A stretch of 64,000 nucleotides of DNA from Variovorax sp. PCZ-1 (GTDB lineage: Bacteria > Pseudomonadota > Gammaproteobacteria > Burkholderiales > Burkholderiaceae_C), in contig NZ_JAHCDN010000002.1 of the NCBI RefSeq assembly GCF_018413605.1, positions 434,001-498,000 on the forward strand. The letters run 5' to 3'. Positions 9,960 through 19,124 of this stretch are shown here, piece by piece (within the stretch, counting starts at the first letter, position 1; every line of letters starts with the position of its first letter). The notes beneath the pieces were generated by a model that was not told the origin of the DNA, did no database searches, and worked only from the letters and a program-made list of their open reading frames with translations. The position numbers and the translations under genes were made by a program.

Positions 9960-10667
9960 TTATTGGTTTCTATTCAAAGACTTGGCTCCAAACGGTCGTC
10001 CCGCTTTGCTAGCATGCAGCCGTTTTTCGGTCTTCTTCTCTAAACTCAGCACAAATTCATCATCGCCCAAAGCATGGTTTTTCAGCAGGGTTTGGGTGAT
10101 CTGGGTTTGCTGATGCGCCGTCAATCCGGCATGCACCAGCTCTTGGTAAGCCTTCTCGCGCGAAAACGGCGTGTTGCCCAGATTGAAAAAATGCGGATGA
10201 GGCGTGATCAAGCGATCAGACAGCCCGCCCGAGTAATGCGCATAGCTGCTCCAAGCAAAATCCTGCGGCTGCGCCACCATTTGCGCACGCACAGGATTCA
10301 AATCGATATACGCCATACACGCCAAAAGATAGCGCTCACTCTGCACCAAAGCACTGCGAAACCGGCCTTCAAACAACGTGCCCGAGCGCCCCTGCCGCTT
10401 GTTAAACCGCAGCACATAGCTGCGCCCGATTTGCTGCATCATCTTTGACAAGCCCTCTTGCGTGCTCGGCGTGAGCAGCAGATGCAGGTGGTTGTCCATC
10501 AACACATAGCTGTGAATCGCCACCGCATGCTCGCGCGAAGCTTCAAACAACAGCGCCAGCATCTCGCGCCGATCCGCATCTGAGACAAAAATCAGCTGAT
10601 GATTGTTGCCCCGCTGGATCACATGATAGGTGTAGCCCGGAAGAGCCGTGCGCGCTTGTCTTGCCAT
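9960..10667 (-). CDS. REP-associated tyrosine transposase (RAYT, IS200-like Y1 family)
   Basis: 235 aa. Y1 transposases of this group cut and join single-stranded REP palindromes. Seen: MARQARTALPGYTYHVIQRG N-terminus, the HUH motif in MDNHLHLLL (His-hydrophobic-His), and the region YLLACMAYIDLNPVRAQMV with the candidate catalytic Tyr and WSSYAHYSGG. It is flanked on both sides by AATTAATTGGG..CCC palindromes in mirror orientation, as expected for a RAYT and its cognate REPs. It is inserted between gltB and an unknown gene on the same strand. Intact reading frame. Confidence 0.92.
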   Translation of the reverse strand: MARQARTALPGYTYHVIQRGNNHQLIFVSDADRREMLALLFEASREHAVAIHSYVLMDNHLHLLLTPSTQEGLSKMMQQIGRSYVLRFNKRQGRSGTLFEGRFRSALVQSERYLLACMAYIDLNPVRAQMVAQPQDFAWSSYAHYSGGLSDRLITPHPHFFNLGNTPFSREKAYQELVHAGLTAHQQTQITQTLLKNHALGDDEFVLSLEKKTEKRLHASKAGRPFGAKSLNRNQ

Positions 10668-12671: not shown

Positions 12672-13016
12672 TCATGGCGACTGATTCAAACTACCCTCAT
12701 CATCTTGCAGCCACGCAGGAATATCGCGCTTGCCATGCAGCACTCGCCACACATCAATGCTGTCTGCTTGCTCAAAATAAAATACCAAATACGGGAATCG
12801 CGTACAGCTCCAAAACCGCAAGCCGGGCAGATTCAAGGTGTGCGCATATCTCGGAGAGCCAGTTCCTGGGTGGCGTTGAATATGGCCGAGCGCCGCTTCG
12901 AGTTCGTCAACTAAATCAAAGGCAGCCTGCGGTGCATCTTGCTCAAGGTAATACCGCGCGGCTTCGAGCACATCCTGCTCAGCCAATGCGCGCCGGATGA
13001 TCGGCTTGAGTTTCAC
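12672..13016 (-). CDS. parE: ParE/RelE-type toxin
   Basis: 114 aa, RelE/ParE superfamily; ParE toxins act on DNA gyrase. Seen: N-terminal RRALAEQDVLEAARYYLEQD helix pair, the LGHIQRHPGTGSPRY segment and the beta-sheet core LRFWSCTRFPYLVFYFEQ..SIDVWRVLHGKRDIP typical of ParE. The ATG overlaps the stop of the upstream antitoxin by 4 nt (ATGA), as in most parDE operons. Flanked by R repeats. Toxin type is by family resemblance; target not shown by sequence. Confidence 0.88.
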   Translation of the reverse strand: MKLKPIIRRALAEQDVLEAARYYLEQDAPQAAFDLVDELEAALGHIQRHPGTGSPRYAHTLNLPGLRFWSCTRFPYLVFYFEQADSIDVWRVLHGKRDIPAWLQDDEGSLNQSP

Positions 13017-13264
13017 TTCGTTGCGGTTTTGTTGGCCATCTTGGAAATCGTTTGGCGCAAGCTATCAAAGTAAGCTGCGTCAAACTCACCGACGGCTGGC
13101 GAACGAGCGCCAGCCAGCAGCAAGCCACGCAACTGTTTACGCTCCTGATCTTCGCGTATGAGCGCGCGCACGTATTCGCTAGCAGTGCCAAAGCTTCCTT
13201 CTGAAACTTGGTCGTCCACATAAGTCTTCAAGCCATCAGGCAGGGAAATGTTCATCGTGCTCAT
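13013..13264 (-). CDS. parD: ParD-type antitoxin (ribbon-helix-helix)
   Basis: 83 aa from the ATG at 13264; the open frame extends further upstream, but residues before MSTMNISLPDGL have no family resemblance. Seen: RHH DNA-binding strand MNISLPDGLKTYVDDQV, then GSFGTASEYVRALIREDQER and a C-terminal toxin-binding tail ending SKMANKTATK. Neutralises the ParE encoded immediately downstream and probably autoregulates the operon. An alternative start at 13255 (MNIS) cannot be excluded. Confidence 0.9.
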   Translation of the reverse strand: MSTMNISLPDGLKTYVDDQVSEGSFGTASEYVRALIREDQERKQLRGLLLAGARSPAVGEFDAAYFDSLRQTISKMANKTATK

Positions 13265-13362
13265 GGGGAAATGATAGCGAATTTGGCAAAATTTGGCAAG
13301 AATGACTGCGGCGCAAGCCTCGCGGTCAACCTCTACAGCTTCAAGCCTGGTGCCCTTTTGAC

Positions 13363-13435: not shown

Positions 13436-14557
13436 CTATGCCATACAAGTAGCAATCACCTCGCGCACCATACCTTCCGGAGCAGTGCGCAGCGTAGCCC
13501 GCCCAGGCGGATCAATCGTGATAAAGCGAATCTCGCCCGCCTCAGCTTTCTTATCCACCTGCATCAACTGCAAATAGCGCGAAGCAACATCGGAGCAGCC
13601 TTCCAAAGGCAACGCAGGCGCTCGCGTAGGCAAGCCCGCCCGCTCAATCAAGCGCGTGAGCCGCTGCACAAAAGCCGTATCCACCGTCCCCAGCTTTTCC
13701 GAGAGCACAGCTGCCATCACCATCCCGCAGCCCACGCCCTCGCCATGCAGCCACGCGCCGTAGCCCAAGCCTGCTTCAATCGCGTGGCCGAAGGTGTGGC
13801 CGAAATTCAAAATCGCGCGAATGCCGCCTTCCTTCTCATCCTCGCCCACCACAGCCGCCTTGATCTCGCAACTGCGCTTCACCGCATGCGCGAGCAGCAC
13901 CTCGTCGCCCGCGCGCAACCCATCGATATTCGCCTCAATCCAATCAAAGAAAGCCATGTCGTAAATCGGCCCGTATTTAATGACCTCGGCCAAACCCGCA
14001 GACATCTCACGCGGCGGCAGCGTCTTGAGCACCGCCAAATCACACACCACCAGCTCCGGCTGATAAAACGCGCCAACCATGTTCTTGCCCAGCGGATGGT
14101 TGATCGCCGTCTTCCCGCCCACACTCGAATCCACCTGCGCCAGCAGCGTGGTCGGCACCTGCACAAACGGCACCCCGCGCATATAGCAAGCCGCCGCAAA
14201 CCCCGTCATATCGCCCACCACCCCGCCGCCCAAGGCAAACAGCGTCGTCTTGCGATCCGCCCCGCTGCCCAGCAGCTGATCAAAAATCTTATTTAAAGTC
14301 TCCCAGCTTTTGAACTCCTCCCCATCAGGCAGGATAAGCGTCTGCACATTCGGATAGCGCGTTTGCAAAGCCTCGAATAGCTGCGCCGCATAGAGTGGCG
14401 CCACCGTGCTGTTCGTCACAATCAAAGCGCTACTCGCCTTAGGAAGCTTGGCATAAGTGGCCGCGTCTTGCAGCAGCCCCGAGCCAATCTGAATGGAATA
14501 AGAGCGACCTTCAAGGCTGACGGGGACGGTGTGGAGAAGCTTTGAAACTGTAGGCAT
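13436..14557 (-). CDS. aroB: 3-dehydroquinate synthase
   Basis: Second step of the shikimate pathway: DAHP to 3-dehydroquinate, NAD- and metal-dependent. 373 aa from [15 protein letters not shown]; an ORF start 24 nt upstream is less typical. Seen: [14 protein letters not shown], the NAD-binding [40 protein letters not shown], metal ligands in AEVIKYG and [12 protein letters not shown], and [13 protein letters not shown]. Normally the gene directly after aroK; here aroK is 40 kb away at 54.1 kb on the other strand. Confidence 0.97.
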
Positions 14558-14654
14558 GCCGTGATTGTCTGCGATCAACATGCAGGCATTGCCTTAAAGA
14601 AAGCGCAGAAATGAAAATCTGAGCACAAAAGGCAGCCAAAGGCTACAATATGGC

Positions 14655-14948
14655 ATGCAAACGGACAAACCCATCACTTGGAGCGCGGAAAAGAATCTGC
14701 AACTGATGGCGCAGCGCGGCGTGTGTTTTGAGGACGTTTTGGTGGCCGTGGCTGGAGAAGGTTTGCTGGCCAATGTGTCGCATCCGCAGCCTGAGCGCTA
14801 TGGGCATCAAAGGATATGGGTCGTCAAAATGAAAGCCTATGTTTATCTTGTGCCGTATGTAGAAAACGATCAGCATATTTTCCTGAAAACCATAATTCCC
14901 AGCCGCAAAGCCACGCGCCAATACCTCGGAGAAACCCATGAAAGCTAA
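14655..14948 (+). CDS. BrnT-like toxin of a type II toxin-antitoxin pair
   Basis: 97 aa. Resembles BrnT/DUF4258-type small RNase toxins: ITWSAEKNLQLMAQRGVCFED at the N-terminus, central RYGHQRIWVVKMKAYVYLVPY and the C-terminal IIPSRKATRQYL, which corresponds to the ARKATR-type motif of BrnT. It overlaps the next gene by 11 nt, and that gene encodes a CopG-like antitoxin, so toxin comes first as in brnTA. Exact subfamily uncertain. It starts the + strand accessory block next to aroB. Confidence 0.75.
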   Translation: MQTDKPITWSAEKNLQLMAQRGVCFEDVLVAVAGEGLLANVSHPQPERYGHQRIWVVKMKAYVYLVPYVENDQHIFLKTIIPSRKATRQYLGETHES

Positions 14949-15249
14949 CGCCCCCCGCACAGCAAAAATCACCACCACGCAAGACGATGCCAACGAGCAA
15001 GCCCTGCTCGATTCCTTCGAGGCCGGTGAGTGGATTTCCAATTCCGATGAAGCCACAGACATCGCCCGCTACCGCACAGCCGCCTCCAAAGCCCTGCTCA
15101 AAAACAAACGTGTGAACATCCGCTTATCCAGCATGGATTTAGAAGGCCTGCAAGCCAAAGCCGCGCAGGAAGGTTTGCCTTATCAAACTTTGATTGCTAG
15201 CGTGTTGCACAAGTATGTCTCGGGGCGGTTGGTGAATTCGCAGATGTGA
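14938..15249 (+). CDS. CopG-family antitoxin partner
   Basis: 103 aa. Seen: C-terminal ribbon-helix-helix-like segment VNIRLSSMDLEGLQAKAAQE followed by GLPYQTLIASVLHKYVSGRL, a very characteristic CopG/BrnA-type antitoxin signature, and an acidic N-terminal half (LDSFEAGEWISNSDEATD) that would bind the toxin. Overlaps the BrnT-like gene by 11 nt, so the two are translationally coupled. Expected to repress its own operon. Confidence 0.82.
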   Translation: MKANAPRTAKITTTQDDANEQALLDSFEAGEWISNSDEATDIARYRTAASKALLKNKRVNIRLSSMDLEGLQAKAAQEGLPYQTLIASVLHKYVSGRLVNSQM

Positions 15250-15297
15250 ATTTGCTTTTTCTTCGCTCTACCCGCAAGCTTGCTTCGCCTTCACGCA

Positions 15298-15460
15298 ACC
15301 CGCTCGCCTGCCACGTGACGTGCCCGAAAAAGCCGAGGACTGTCTTTTTCAGCGCGTTGTGCATGGTTTCACAAGCTGCTGATCTTTTGTAGCGATGATT
15401 ACATGGCTGGCCGCGCCCGACCGAGACAGTCTTCGTTTTTTCAGACCCATCACGCGGCGG
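15298..15460. repeat. 163-bp element, copy 1 (MITE-like)
   Basis: Begins ACCCGCTCGCCTGCCACGTG and ends TTTTCAGACCCATCACGCGG; about nine in ten bases match copy 2 at 16100-16261, 802 bp downstream, same orientation. Inside each copy, CGAAAAAGCCGAGGACTGTC near the left is roughly the reverse complement of AGACAGTCTTCGTTTTTTCA near the right, so each copy could fold into a long stem. Confidence 0.85.
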
Positions 15461-15496
15461 CTATACGTGTCGGCGCGTTGTTCCTTCGTTTTACAG

Positions 15497-15560
15497 GGAA
15501 TTTGAAGCAAAAGAGGCATATCGCCGGCGTATTTATTGCGCGGCGTGCTATCGAAATATG
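15497..15560 (+). repeat. Repeat R, copy 5
   Basis: GGAATTTGAAGCAAAAGAGG, CATATCGCCGGCGTATTTAT, TGCGCGGCGTGCTATCGAAA, TATGA. Shares the unusual TTTATTGCG variant only with copy 6, on the other side of the VOC gene. Confidence 0.88.
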
Positions 15561-15612
15561 AGTTCATGCACAGGAAGATGGTTACGCAAAAGCAGTCGCG
15601 AGACCAGTGATG

Positions 15613-15987
15613 CTAAGGCGCGATGACTTGACCAATCCGTACCAAATTACCATCAACGTCAATCAAAGCAAACTCGCGCAGCCCCCAAGGCTTGTTTTCT
15701 AGCTCGGTCAAGCGAGGTATGCCTGAGCTTGGCAATTGAGCTGCCCGGCAAGCGCGATAGAAAGATTCGACATCGGTGACGCGGATGTAGCAGCCCACTG
15801 AAGACTCCGCAGGCACGAGCTCTTGATGAGTGAAAAAATGAAGCTCAACGCTGCCTCTGTGGAGGATGGCATAGCCTTTGTCACACGCGTGGACTCCGCC
15901 CTCAAAACCAAGACGCTTGTAGAACGCAACCGTGTCGCTGACCGAGCGGCTCGGCAGTATGGGGATAGCGATATCGAGCAGTTCCAT
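15613..15987 (-). CDS. VOC-fold protein, bleomycin-resistance (Ble) type
   Basis: 124 aa from MELLDIAIPILPSRS. Seen: VOC fold with ILPSRSVSDTVAFYKRLGFE, VELHFFTHQEL, VGCYIRVTDVESFYRA and the C-terminal KPWGLREFALIDVDGNLVRI, the order found in Ble drug-binding proteins, which sequester rather than degrade glycopeptide drugs. The open frame extends upstream through R copy 6 and the 163-bp element, but that part is repeat sequence. Bracketed by R copies 5 and 6 and the two 163-bp elements, so it looks like an acquired cassette. The ligand is not known. Confidence 0.85.
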   Translation of the reverse strand: MELLDIAIPILPSRSVSDTVAFYKRLGFEGGVHACDKGYAILHRGSVELHFFTHQELVPAESSVGCYIRVTDVESFYRACRAAQLPSSGIPRLTELENKPWGLREFALIDVDGNLVRIGQVIAP

Positions 15988-16023
15988 AGCTCTTTCGATT
16001 CTACGCCGCTTGAGATCTTGCAG

Positions 16024-16089
16024 AGGATTTAAAGCAAAAAACAGCATATCGCCGGCATTTTTATTGCGAAGTATGCTATCAAAATAATA
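16024..16089 (+). repeat. Repeat R, copy 6
   Basis: AGGATTTAAAGCAAAAAACA, GCATATCGCCGGCATTTTTA, TTGCGAAGTATGCTATCAAA, ATAATA. Same orientation as copy 5. Confidence 0.88.
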
Positions 16090-16099
16090 ACATTGCACC

Positions 16100-16261
16100 A
16101 CCCGCTCGCCTGCCACGTGACGTGCCCGAAAAAGCCAAGTACTGTCTTTTCGGCGCACTGTGCACGGTTTCACGAGCTGTCGATCTTTTGTAGCGATGAT
16201 TACATGACTGGCTGCGCCCGATCGAGACAGTCTTCGTTTTTTCAGACCCATCACGCGGCGG
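16100..16261. repeat. 163-bp element, copy 2 (MITE-like)
   Basis: Direct repeat of 15298-15460 (ACCCGCTCGCCTGCCACGTG to CAGACCCATCACGCGGCGG) with scattered substitutions and one deleted base. Ends 150 bp before the GHKL ATPase start. Confidence 0.85.
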
Positions 16262-16411
16262 ATGCGAAGTCTTTACTGTATTGCACTCGTCTAATCTACG
16301 AACAATAATGTTCATTGGTATGTCGTTAGTTTTGAGCGAGCACCTCTGCGTATACTACGTCAACTGTTACAAATAACGCTGACAAACAAGGTCAAAAAGA
16401 AAGCAAAAGTC

Positions 16412-18379
16412 ATGGAACAACGATCGGATGTGGAGTTCAGAGCTGAGAAGTTGTACAAAAACTCTAGAGAGAAGTTTGGCTACCTGTTTCGAGAGGTCGT
16501 CTCAAACTCAATCCATGCCGCACTGATCAAAACTTCCTTACAAACATCAAAAGATTTTAAGCCGCTTGTCAGATTCACTGTTAAAAGACAACACGGAGCC
16601 TTAGAAATTTGCATTGAGGACAACGGTGAGGGTTTTCATGATCGCAACAGAGCGTATTTCACAAGCCTAGATTCCAAAAATACTGAAAAGGAGAAGCTAA
16701 ATTTTCACCCAAAGGGACAAGGTCGCCTCGCAATCGTTTACTTTTCCGATATGGCAAAGTATTCGTCTGTTTACGCTAATTCGTCAGGGGAGTTAAATCG
16801 CATTGAATTTGATTACCCTGAACGCAGCCCATCGTTGTTTGATCTGAGTGACGTAGGTTCATCAATTGTGAATGAGGGAATTACTGGTACAACGATCCAA
16901 CTCACACTTGCAAAGCAACAGTCGCTTGGTCGAGCCAATACATTCTTCAATAAATACTCTGATGTCAATAAGCTGGCTGGATGGTTCATAGAGACGTTTT
17001 TTCCTTTTTTCATGGAAAATGAAGCCCTAGAACTCCAAATCAATATTCAAGGAGACGCGGAGCCAATAACTATTAATAAAGCATTCATCGAAAAGAATGT
17101 AAAGCGTGTTCCATTCAGCGTGAAATTTGATGGGTCTTCCGCCAACACTACACATTTTCAAATGTGGTTGGTGTCAGTGGCAACGGCACCAAAGAGCAAG
17201 AATCAAGTAACTTGCTTCGCAAGGCATCTCCAAGCTGAAATCGAGGGCGGAAAACTTGAGTATGAAATTGATCTTCCTGTTGCCTATGACTGGAGATTAA
17301 CGTCGGAGTTTTTCGACGATAACGTTGATCAAAAGGGTGACAAAATTGAGATAAGTGACGCCGACTTAGAGCAAATTCAAGTCGCTTTAAATCAAGCACT
17401 AGATACTGAGTTCTCATTGCAGATCACTGCTAATCGCGCAGAGTCTCAAAAAAATGTCGAGAATGCGAAGGCTAAGTTCCAATCGCTTTCGGTCTTTATT
17501 GATGCTCGGAAAAATTCAGAAACGAGACGGATTCTGAAAGACGCAGATATAGTGAGCGGTGCCTTGGAGGATAAGGGTAAGGTCGAGAGGACATATTGGA
17601 TTAGCGAAGAAGCGGATCCAGAAGAAGTAGGAAAGCTATTGAACTCTTCACTTCACATATACATCCACCATAGAGGCAGAGTTTTAAAGCGTCTCAAAGA
17701 ACTGGTTCTTCTATATAACGAAGAAGGCGAAGAAAAGAAAGAGCGGGAAAATGATGTTCATGATCTGTTCCTGCGTAGAGGTAATTCTCTTAAGGAATCG
17801 AATGGAAAAAGCCATCTTCACAATCTTTGGATTCTGGACGATAAGTACACGATCTTTTCAGAGACTCTTCAAGCCTCAAGTACAAAAAGCGGTTCGTCAG
17901 TATCTGACATTTACATCTGGGCAGATGATTTGGAAAAGACGAAAGAGCTTTTGATACTTGAGCTTAAGTCAACAACCTCATCTCACAATGCAGGAGATAA
18001 ATATGAGAGTATGGTCGCGCAGGTGAAGCGGTATGCAAAGCAGTTTTATCAAAATCCTACAAAAGTTCTCAACTGGCATGTGAATCCGGAAAACGTTTTG
18101 TATTCTGGCGTTGTGCTAGCTAGAAAAAGTGACATCTATAGGGAACTGAATTCAAACAATGGCGGGTCGTCGCCGAACAAGATTCCGTTTCTGGAGTCTT
18201 CTTATTACTTCTACGAGAATTTCTCTGTAGAGCAGAACGCTACGGCAGAACCTAAATTCATGAAGATTCGCATAGAAATGTATTCCTATGAGGACATCCA
18301 TAGACTCGCAGAATCTAGAAATGCGGTGTTCCTAAAGCTCCTCAAAAATGAGTTTAGCGTCGGCAAATCGCAACTCTAA
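16412..18379 (+). CDS. GHKL (Hsp90/MutL-like) ATPase with C-terminal PD-(D/E)XK-like domain; candidate defence protein
   Basis: 655 aa, no signal peptide or membrane segment. N-terminal GHKL ATP-binding fold: N-box REVVSNSIHAAL (Glu28, Asn32), G1 box IEDNGEGF (Asp70), a lid with HPKGQGRLAIVYF (about 99-111) and GITGTTIQL (about 157-165). Middle region about 200-440 has no recognised domain and includes charged helices. C-terminal part (about 445-560) has NLWILDDKY, then SDIYIW, LLILELKS and QVKRYAKQF, matching the D..ExK..Q pattern of PD-(D/E)XK nucleases. Similar ATPase-plus-nuclease proteins are annotated only as ATP-binding proteins. The gene is visibly more AT-rich than its neighbours, stands alone, and abuts repeats, all suggesting transfer. 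No strong Shine-Dalgarno site. Role in phage defence is inference. Confidence 0.8.
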   Translation: MEQRSDVEFRAEKLYKNSREKFGYLFREVVSNSIHAALIKTSLQTSKDFKPLVRFTVKRQHGALEICIEDNGEGFHDRNRAYFTSLDSKNTEKEKLNFHPKGQGRLAIVYFSDMAKYSSVYANSSGELNRIEFDYPERSPSLFDLSDVGSSIVNEGITGTTIQLTLAKQQSLGRANTFFNKYSDVNKLAGWFIETFFPFFMENEALELQINIQGDAEPITINKAFIEKNVKRVPFSVKFDGSSANTTHFQMWLVSVATAPKSKNQVTCFARHLQAEIEGGKLEYEIDLPVAYDWRLTSEFFDDNVDQKGDKIEISDADLEQIQVALNQALDTEFSLQITANRAESQKNVENAKAKFQSLSVFIDARKNSETRRILKDADIVSGALEDKGKVERTYWISEEADPEEVGKLLNSSLHIYIHHRGRVLKRLKELVLLYNEEGEEKKERENDVHDLFLRRGNSLKESNGKSHLHNLWILDDKYTIFSETLQASSTKSGSSVSDIYIWADDLEKTKELLILELKSTTSSHNAGDKYESMVAQVKRYAKQFYQNPTKVLNWHVNPENVLYSGVVLARKSDIYRELNSNNGGSSPNKIPFLESSYYFYENFSVEQNATAEPKFMKIRIEMYSYEDIHRLAESRNAVFLKLLKNEFSVGKSQL

Positions 18380-18500
18380 CAACTGCTTTGACCCGTTTAC
18401 CAAGCTGGAACTTTGTGAGCTAAGCGAATTGTTTTGCAAACGCGGATGATCGTGGCAGATGTTTGTTGCTGAAAGAACTGCCGTAAGATTTTTCCGTAGT

Positions 18501-19124
18501 TCACTTGGCAGGCGAGCGGGTGGTGCGAAACTTATTCCAAACTCGCCAGCCTAGCAACACGGCAAGAATAGCGGCGTACACATACACCTCGTTGTAATCA
18601 TTCTTCCCAGATCGCATCCAGAAAAAATGCAAGATGCCCAGACCTGCGATCACGTAGACCAGCTTATGCAGCATTTGCCAACGCTTTGCACCTAGCGCTT
18701 TGATGGCTCGGTTGAAAGAGGTGAGCGCAAGTGGTGTGAGCAGCAGAATTGCCGCTGAGCCGACGAGGATGAAGGGGCGTTTGATGATGTCGTTGATGAT
18801 GTCGCCGATGTCGAAGCCCATGTCGAACCAGCTGTAGGAGATGAGGTGGAGCAGGGCGTAGAAATAGACGAAGAGGCCGAACATGCGGCGGAAGCGGGCG
18901 AGCTGGGGGGTTTTGCTCATGACGCGCAGGGGCGTGACGGCGAGGACGATGCAGAGGAAGCGTAGCGTCCAGTCGCCAGTGGAGCGGATCAGGTATTCAG
19001 CGGGGTTGGCGCCGAGTTGGTTGGTGATGATGCCGTAGATCAGCCAAGCGAAGGGGAGGAGGCATGCTATGAAAAGAATAGCTTTTGCCGCAGGTTTTAA
19101 AAGGGCTTGGCGCGGATTTATCAT
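18501..19124 (-). CDS. msrQ: MsrQ, heme-binding membrane subunit of the MsrPQ methionine sulfoxide reductase
   Basis: Inner-membrane b-type heme protein that passes quinol electrons to MsrP for repair of oxidised periplasmic proteins. 207 aa, normal length. Seen: about six hydrophobic segments, TGDWTLRFLCIVLAVTPLR, MFGLFVYFYALLHLISYSWFD (heme His), RWQMLHKLVYVIAGLGILHFFW (heme His). Encoded just after msrP; a 106-bp hairpin element lies in the 139-nt gap. Confidence 0.95.
   Translation of the reverse strand: MINPRQALLKPAAKAILFIACLLPFAWLIYGIITNQLGANPAEYLIRSTGDWTLRFLCIVLAVTPLRVMSKTPQLARFRRMFGLFVYFYALLHLISYSWFDMGFDIGDIINDIIKRPFILVGSAAILLLTPLALTSFNRAIKALGAKRWQMLHKLVYVIAGLGILHFFWMRSGKNDYNEVYVYAAILAVLLGWRVWNKFRTTRSPAK

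Follow-up and report, generated by a model that had tools for sequence, protein, structure and literature searches.

A stand-alone GHKL ATPase-nuclease gene of the paraMORC3 type, a candidate for single-gene defence

The paraMORC3 proteins join GHKL and S5 domains to a C-terminal domain of restriction-endonuclease fold with an E-D-ExK signature, as described in the part of Iyer, Abhiman & Aravind 2008 that was available to us (PMC2292703). According to the same partial text, nuclease-bearing paraMORC3 genes that stand alone occur mainly in proteobacteria and Bacteroidetes, a role in RM systems is proposed for the paraMORCs, and repair is raised as possible outside RM contexts. In the available sections of a 2025 publication, VcSduA of V. 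cholerae (GHKL + DUF4263) is a single-gene anti-phage system that loses its activity upon E27A or K557A substitution and that its authors relate to Shedu type I-D and to paraMORC3 (PMC12137116). Shedu, in the accessible portions of two papers, is a nuclease with variable N-terminal regulators (PMC12904381, PMC12409362), and EcSduA, which senses DNA ends, is reported as tetrameric (PMC12904381). The defence gene PD-T4-8 also carries a DUF4263 domain, as given in an excerpt of PMC9519451.

Here we describe a gene in a 64-kb stretch of DNA (the window), which corresponds to C2:434001-498000 of a 3.54 Mb source assembly in 24 contigs, where the gene is single-copy. We assign its product by architecture to a divergent paraMORC3-type branch; the homology evidence for this comes from proteins of the same architecture, while published paraMORC3 is known here by description. 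The gene is a new example of a known GHKL-nuclease type and not a new kind of system. The original prediction of a single-gene defence candidate remains credible, while its view that no named system matches does not stand in the light of paraMORC3 and VcSduA, as far as the available parts of PMC2292703 and PMC12137116 describe them. The gene and its immediate neighbours are:
16412..18379, + strand: GHKL ATPase-nuclease gene assigned to the paraMORC3 type, 655-aa open reading frame
14655..15249, + strand: BrnT/BrnA-like toxin-antitoxin pair, with Pfam matches under cut-off; a neighbour, not part of the system
15613..15990, - strand: glyoxalase/bleomycin-resistance-like (VOC) gene, a neighbour

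The frame of 655 codons contains zero internal stops and begins with an ATG, a start backed by an N-terminus that resembles that of Bacteroidota relatives. As the original prediction had it, the gene is AT-rich, has no operon partner and lies near toxin-antitoxin genes and repeat DNA. Its GC content is 0.418 and its GC3 is 0.434, compared with a GC3 of 0.63-0.73 in six other window genes (aroB, msrQ, msrP, ccsB, ysxC and dgt) and of 0.58-0.65 in the three small upstream genes (VOC and BrnT/BrnA-like); the AT-rich stretch around it runs from ~16270 to ~18500. Judged by composition, the gene is of horizontal origin. The nearest upstream gene on the same strand is the BrnA-like gene, which ends 1.16 kb away and is separated from the GHKL gene by the opposite-strand glyoxalase-like gene, and the msrQ-like gene downstream is convergent, so the GHKL gene stands alone without an operon partner. 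A ParDE toxin-antitoxin pair is located at 12672-13273, near the BrnT/BrnA-like pair, and copies of a ~165-bp repeat lie at 15298-15460 and 16100-16262. No Rfam family reaches the gathering score between 14000 and 19300, the 64-kb window yielded no tRNA, and a promoter scan gave 4 promoter-like sites against a mean of 4.6 in shuffles, which is no excess.

The observed domain order places an ATPase half before a nuclease half:
16469..16909, + strand: predicted GHKL ATP-binding domain (about residues 20-166), from motif columns and fold matches
17024..17416, + strand: putative S5-like transducer domain (about residues 205-335), from predicted secondary structure and two-domain GHKL+S5 fold matches; boundary approximate
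17621..18361, + strand: predicted PD-(D/E)XK-type nuclease domain (residues 404-650), from conservation, model and profile comparison
17747-17749, + strand: E446, nuclease motif residue
17906-17908, + strand: D499, nuclease motif residue
17960-17968, + strand: E517-x-K519, nuclease motif residues
18020-18022, + strand: Q537, nuclease motif residue

In the N-terminal half, the GHKL motifs comprise an N-box with E28 and N32, the D70-N71-G72-E73-G74 segment and K101-G-Q-G-R105, and all 21 of 21 aligned proteins share E28, N32, D70, G72, G74, G102, G104 and R105. Pfam models of the same fold score the 655-aa protein under their curated cut-offs (HATPase_c_3, E 0.0011; HATPase_c, E 0.007). The predicted fold of residues 111-390 has a pLDDT of 70-94 in 26 of 28 ten-residue blocks. 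When the model of the N-terminal half was compared with the PDB, GHKL ATPases came out on top, with E down to 2e-10 for 3h4l, the N-terminal domain of a DNA-repair protein which we take to be yeast PMS1; other fold matches are Hsp90/TRAP1, SMCHD1, GyrB and topoisomerase VI-B, and the TM-scores by query are low throughout the 50 rows shown (0.19-0.33). The protein is thus predicted to contain a GHKL domain with intact ATP-binding motifs, in agreement with the intact fold with N-box, DNGEG and KGQGRL that had been proposed, and the GHKL+S5 fold matches with their low TM-scores provide moderate evidence for an S5 domain behind it.

The C-terminal half had been singled out as a nuclease-like module running from LELKS to QVKRYA, and E446, D499, E517, K519 and Q537 are indeed invariant in 21/21 aligned sequences. 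The full-length structure model is weak in this half (pLDDT about 25-40 for residues 411-570), and the C-terminus was hence modelled alone, which gave a pLDDT of 73 and a pTM of 0.73. Foldseek with this model found no match at E <= 0.001 in the PDB and viral models. The top rows of VIA-align are Nt.BspD6I (Z 8.9), E. coli SduA (8ps4_A; Z 8.8 over 166 residues, rmsd 5.4), B. cereus Shedu (8ti9_C; Z 7.8) and FokI (Z 7.5), followed by McrBC and restriction enzymes, with unrelated proteins among the lower rows; a Z of 8-9 is barely above the best Z of 7-8 that is typical of models without a clear match, and sequence evidence therefore matters for the nuclease reading. The structure check suggested with the original prediction thus returned PD-(D/E)XK nucleases as the best matches of the C-terminal model, whose predicted fold class is PD-(D/E)XK, and Shedu is not singled out, since Nt.BspD6I ties with it.

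The sequence evidence comes from profile-profile comparison with a C-terminus alignment of 22 rows, made up of the window protein, the relatives at loci L001, L002 and L004, and 18 of 26 relatives from viral contigs. These 22 family C-termini align with eight SduA_C proteins at a score of 65.5 (E 3.2e-8), compared with at most 25.6 in 60 column shuffles and 13.5 for the reversed profile. Taken by itself, the branch of the window protein (4 rows) scores 23.0 against the SduA_C proteins, at the level of its shuffles (23.4), and its C-termini score 103-105 against the wider family (at most 22.5 in 60 column shuffles of the own-branch profile against ten wider relatives); the link to SduA_C therefore runs via the wider family. 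Read by eye, the order E...D...ExK...Q is common to the SduA_C proteins and the window protein. The proposed ATPase-plus-nuclease design is upheld by this family alignment, far above shuffled controls, together with the PD-(D/E)XK structural matches. Two of the Bacteroidota relatives match PDDEXK_9 under its cut-off (E 0.0044 and 0.13), which is consistent with a nuclease and was not relied on.

The Pfam model SduA_C (PF14082) recognises 8/8 classical SduA proteins as a positive control, and it gave no hit in the window protein at E <= 1 and 0/10 among wider-family relatives at E <= 0.1. The source genome gave no SduA_C match, and neither did control genomes, which makes this search uninformative. 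A search of solved structures returned nothing with the single protein (E <= 1) or with a profile of ten relatives (E <= 0.1). No model or family of PADLOC 2.0.0 matched the 655-aa protein, and NCBIfam gave just one chance-level row. We discarded TerD, DUF2141, Tox-HNH-HHH, CARF_2M and similar Pfam rows as chance matches that are weak and absent across the wider family.

The ATPase halves of MutL/PMS1, MORC/SMCHD1, Hsp90 and topoisomerases share the GHKL + S5 module, and to our knowledge these proteins are without this C-terminal nuclease domain. The N-terminal regulatory domains of EcSduA and B. cereus Shedu are not known to be of the GHKL type. They resemble the window protein in their C-terminal PD-(D/E)XK core (PDB 8ps4, 8ti9); unlike EcSduA, a DNA-end sensor reported to be tetrameric in the text available (PMC12904381), the GHKL window protein would be expected to form dimers. 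With paraMORC3, the window protein has in common the GHKL motifs, the putative S5 domain, the C-terminal E-D-ExK domain, and a sporadic, mobile distribution in which some members stand alone. As in VcSduA, a single gene encodes a GHKL ATPase followed by a PD-(D/E)xK nuclease, and E27 and K557 of VcSduA correspond by motif to E28 and K519 here. The relatives at loci L025 and L026 carry the invariant Glu at E27 and the invariant Lys at K556, close to the VcSduA positions. Two differences remain: a DUF4263 is reported for VcSduA whereas Pfam finds no SduA_C in the window protein, and the anti-phage activity is experimental there and predicted here. The window protein is Shedu-like and would work like a GHKL-type Shedu; since SduA_C, the Pfam signature model, does not recognise it, we do not file it as Shedu.

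Relatives of the window protein are few at close range. A single-protein scan of genome_contigs (84,980 species), which picks up close relatives only, found four loci, all in Bacteroidota metagenome assemblies and 45-47% identical in the best segment; two of the loci, L002 and L003, encode one identical protein. The single-protein scan of viral contigs gave no match, and an alignment scan of them added L127, on a virus-collection contig, at 49.6% identity. Setting L002/L003 aside, the own-branch relatives are 71-76% identical to each other and ~48% identical to the window protein, and beyond the window gene the branch was found only in Bacteroidota assemblies and this one virus-collection contig. 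Among 60 whole genomes around the source genome, the source itself is the single match. The own-branch profile (5 rows) matched 4 of 398 genomes of the source phylum, namely the source and three partial, weak ones, of which L024 (G837) shares the GHKL-nuclease architecture; L022 was rejected as a UvrD-type helicase on reading its translation. In a Bacteroidota sample the profile matched 10/395 genomes, including that of L001, and the architecture recurs in L010; two others, L017 and L020, were set aside, their translations reading as histidine kinases. The window protein had no match in 72,556 plasmid records or 50,697 phage records, and the L127 protein had none in the plasmid records.

The wider same-architecture set is common: the L024 protein as query matches 54 of the 72,556 plasmid records, and a profile of ten wider relatives (eight plasmid loci, L010 and L024) finds 26 loci in viral contigs. 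Family homology extends over the full length, as the own-branch profile aligns with these ten relatives over 569 columns at E 1.6e-31. The window protein differs from 18 same-architecture relatives outside its own branch in being only 15-21% identical to them and in a four-column insertion before KGQGR that they lack. No near DNA match to the L025 GHKL gene was found in E. coli genomes. At L004 (6175-8144), the Prevotellaceae relative is split by a frame change into two overlapping frames, by real decay or an assembly error.

The own branch comprises six loci in five distinct contexts, and in two of the five the GHKL gene comes last in an RM operon. At L002/L003, a helicase, an Eco57I/type IIG-like methylase and an SMC-like ATPase precede the GHKL gene, and HipA (after a small HTH-like gene), SIR2-like and DUF2971 genes follow; at L004, an XRE-like gene, a type IIG enzyme and a methylase precede the frame-broken GHKL gene. 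In the 8 kb upstream of the L001 gene there are genes for a helicase and an AbiP2-type reverse transcriptase, with HTH and DUF4062 genes directly downstream, and L127 has tyrosine integrase genes upstream, two of them checked by Pfam; the fifth context is that of the window gene, near toxin-antitoxin genes and repeats. In the wider family, RM, Abi, presumably CBASS-like or other defence-type genes flank the gene in 7 of 8 annotated plasmid records (L025, L026, L028, L029, L031, L032 and L033), a count from nine hand-picked records fetched out of the 54, eight of them annotated, without a background control; an integrase lies in the flanks of another plasmid locus, L027. The homologues examined in the neighbourhood survey that the original prediction had called for are thus in RM, defence or mobile settings and not in housekeeping operons. 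L025 is a type I RM operon that holds both a classical Shedu gene and the GHKL-nuclease gene. As side observations, these two genes overlap in L025 (1-9995, a Vibrio fluvialis plasmid), which puts two Shedu-like nucleases in tandem, L026 carries a comparable operon minus the classical Shedu gene, and the helicase-methylase-SMC-GHKL operon with HipA and SIR2-like genes in Paludibacteraceae (L002 3-8516, L003 2-7639) may be a composite defence system.

MutL, Hsp90 and MORC proteins dimerise through their GHKL domains when ATP-bound. By analogy with such relatives, ATP binding would lead two subunits of the window protein to dimerise through their GHKL domains, the S5/middle region would close as a clamp round DNA, and the clamp movement, with ATP hydrolysis likewise presumed from relatives, would license cleavage by the C-terminal PD-(D/E)XK domain with the aid of E446, D499, E517, K519 and metal ions. 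As the trigger, the leading guesses are the topology of the DNA or its ends, the latter being what E. coli SduA is reported to sense. The gene product is in all likelihood a stand-alone ATP-gated DNA endonuclease of a divergent paraMORC3-type, VcSduA-like kind that acts alone, as proposed for VcSduA, in restricting phages or other DNA from outside, the anti-phage effect being predicted from the same relatives. Its closest relatives, at the end of RM operons in two of the five contexts, may act with partners.

This last point bears on another explanation, that the protein is an RM subunit with a GHKL motor by which DNA is looped or remodelled in the service of a type IIG-like enzyme and its methylase, the window gene being either an orphan after partner loss or the partner of a distant RM system. 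The operon-end position at L002/L003, the position behind a type IIG enzyme and a methylase at L004, the role proposed for paraMORCs in the available part of PMC2292703 and two Eco57I-methylase matches elsewhere in the source genome (C4 and C1, just above the family cut-off) would all fit such a subunit. We nevertheless consider it unlikely, as an adjacent RM partner is lacking at L127, at the window gene and, it seems, at L001, and the window gene is intact with its motifs kept, while stand-alone nuclease-bearing paraMORC3 genes are described in the same partial source and VcSduA protects alone in the sections available of PMC12137116.

A function in DNA repair or recombination, such as MutL-like mismatch or end processing, would agree with the DNA-repair protein domain 3h4l, the top structural hit for the N-terminal half, and with the possibility raised for paraMORC members outside RM contexts (PMC2292703, in part). 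A repair gene is hard to reconcile, however, with presence in 1/60 related genomes, the source itself, with low GC, bracketing repeats and absence from the equivalent interval of a same-genus genome, and with relatives in defence-type, plasmid and virus-collection settings, and we judge this function very improbable. It would also be surprising to find here a decayed or silent passenger without function: the right-hand repeat piece is just 36 bp long and promoter-like sites are at the shuffle level (4 against 4.6), but the 655 codons are open and the catalytic columns are intact at ~48% identity to relatives. The endonuclease reading extends the GHKL-nuclease defence type to a branch that escapes Pfam SduA_C and PADLOC 2.0.0, and finders built on such models would therefore miss it. 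As the branch occurs both alone and within RM operons, it is well suited for deciding between a GHKL motor that is a sensor in its own right and one that serves as a subunit of an RM system.

The repeat DNA beside the gene consists of copies of a dispersed hairpin repeat of ~165 bp:
15298..15460, + strand: further upstream copy of the hairpin repeat
16100..16262, + strand: left copy, bordering the AT-rich insert
18501..18536, - strand: 36-bp outer-end piece, inverted, which forms the last codons of the msrQ-like gene

The low-GC GHKL insert sits between the 16100-16262 copy and the inverted 18501-18536 piece, and a same-genus homologue of the msrQ-like protein matches it (91%) over residues 3-200 only. 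A window copy folds as one long hairpin of -61 kcal/mol, a value without a shuffle control. The repeat query has at least 45 matches in the source genome, pieces included (40 of 131 candidates scored), and 35 of the 45 overlap the repeat core. Of 16 neighbouring core pairs within 3 kb, 14 are head-to-head, including the window pair, two are direct and none is tail-to-tail; the direct ones are the window pair 15298/16100 and a pair on C1 that resembles a single interrupted copy. Pair interiors span 131-2028 bp and have a GC content below that of their flanks in 10/10 measured pairs. The repeat was present in 3/3 genus genomes searched, and one weak piece was found in 1 of 32 other genomes. A crude test for target-site duplication outside the ends of 10 pairs gave no shared word longer than 7 nt, and no transposase was recognised inside the repeat pairs (L090-L107); the Y1-type transposase gene at 9960-10667 would be a first candidate for moving the units. 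Among ten cargo proteins scanned with Pfam, five had no row and the others gave NUDIX, DUF6985, DUF4272 and two rows under cut-off. L100, read by eye, also looks VapBC-like.

These genus-specific repeat pairs, most of which enclose low-GC cargo, may represent an undescribed cassette-like element. The aroB-msrQ interval of G001, a genome of the same genus, is without the BrnTA-VOC-GHKL block and holds other genes instead; comparison of this interval (G001:C71:1-14000) with window 13436-19124 revealed a 237-aa ORF between opposed repeat pieces, and the msrQ C-terminus differs between the two genomes. One could imagine an undescribed cassette system, restricted to the genus, in which low-GC genes lie between head-to-head ~165-bp hairpin repeats and the GHKL gene is the cargo for defence; such a system would have brought an ATP-gated nuclease into a Burkholderiales-type chromosome and would swap the aroB-msrQ contents between sister species; we regard this as possible but rather doubtful. 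The G001 interval also has two short ORFs that read like a putative regulator/toxin pair. Elsewhere in the window, a Y1-type (IS200-like) transposase gene is located at 9960-10667.
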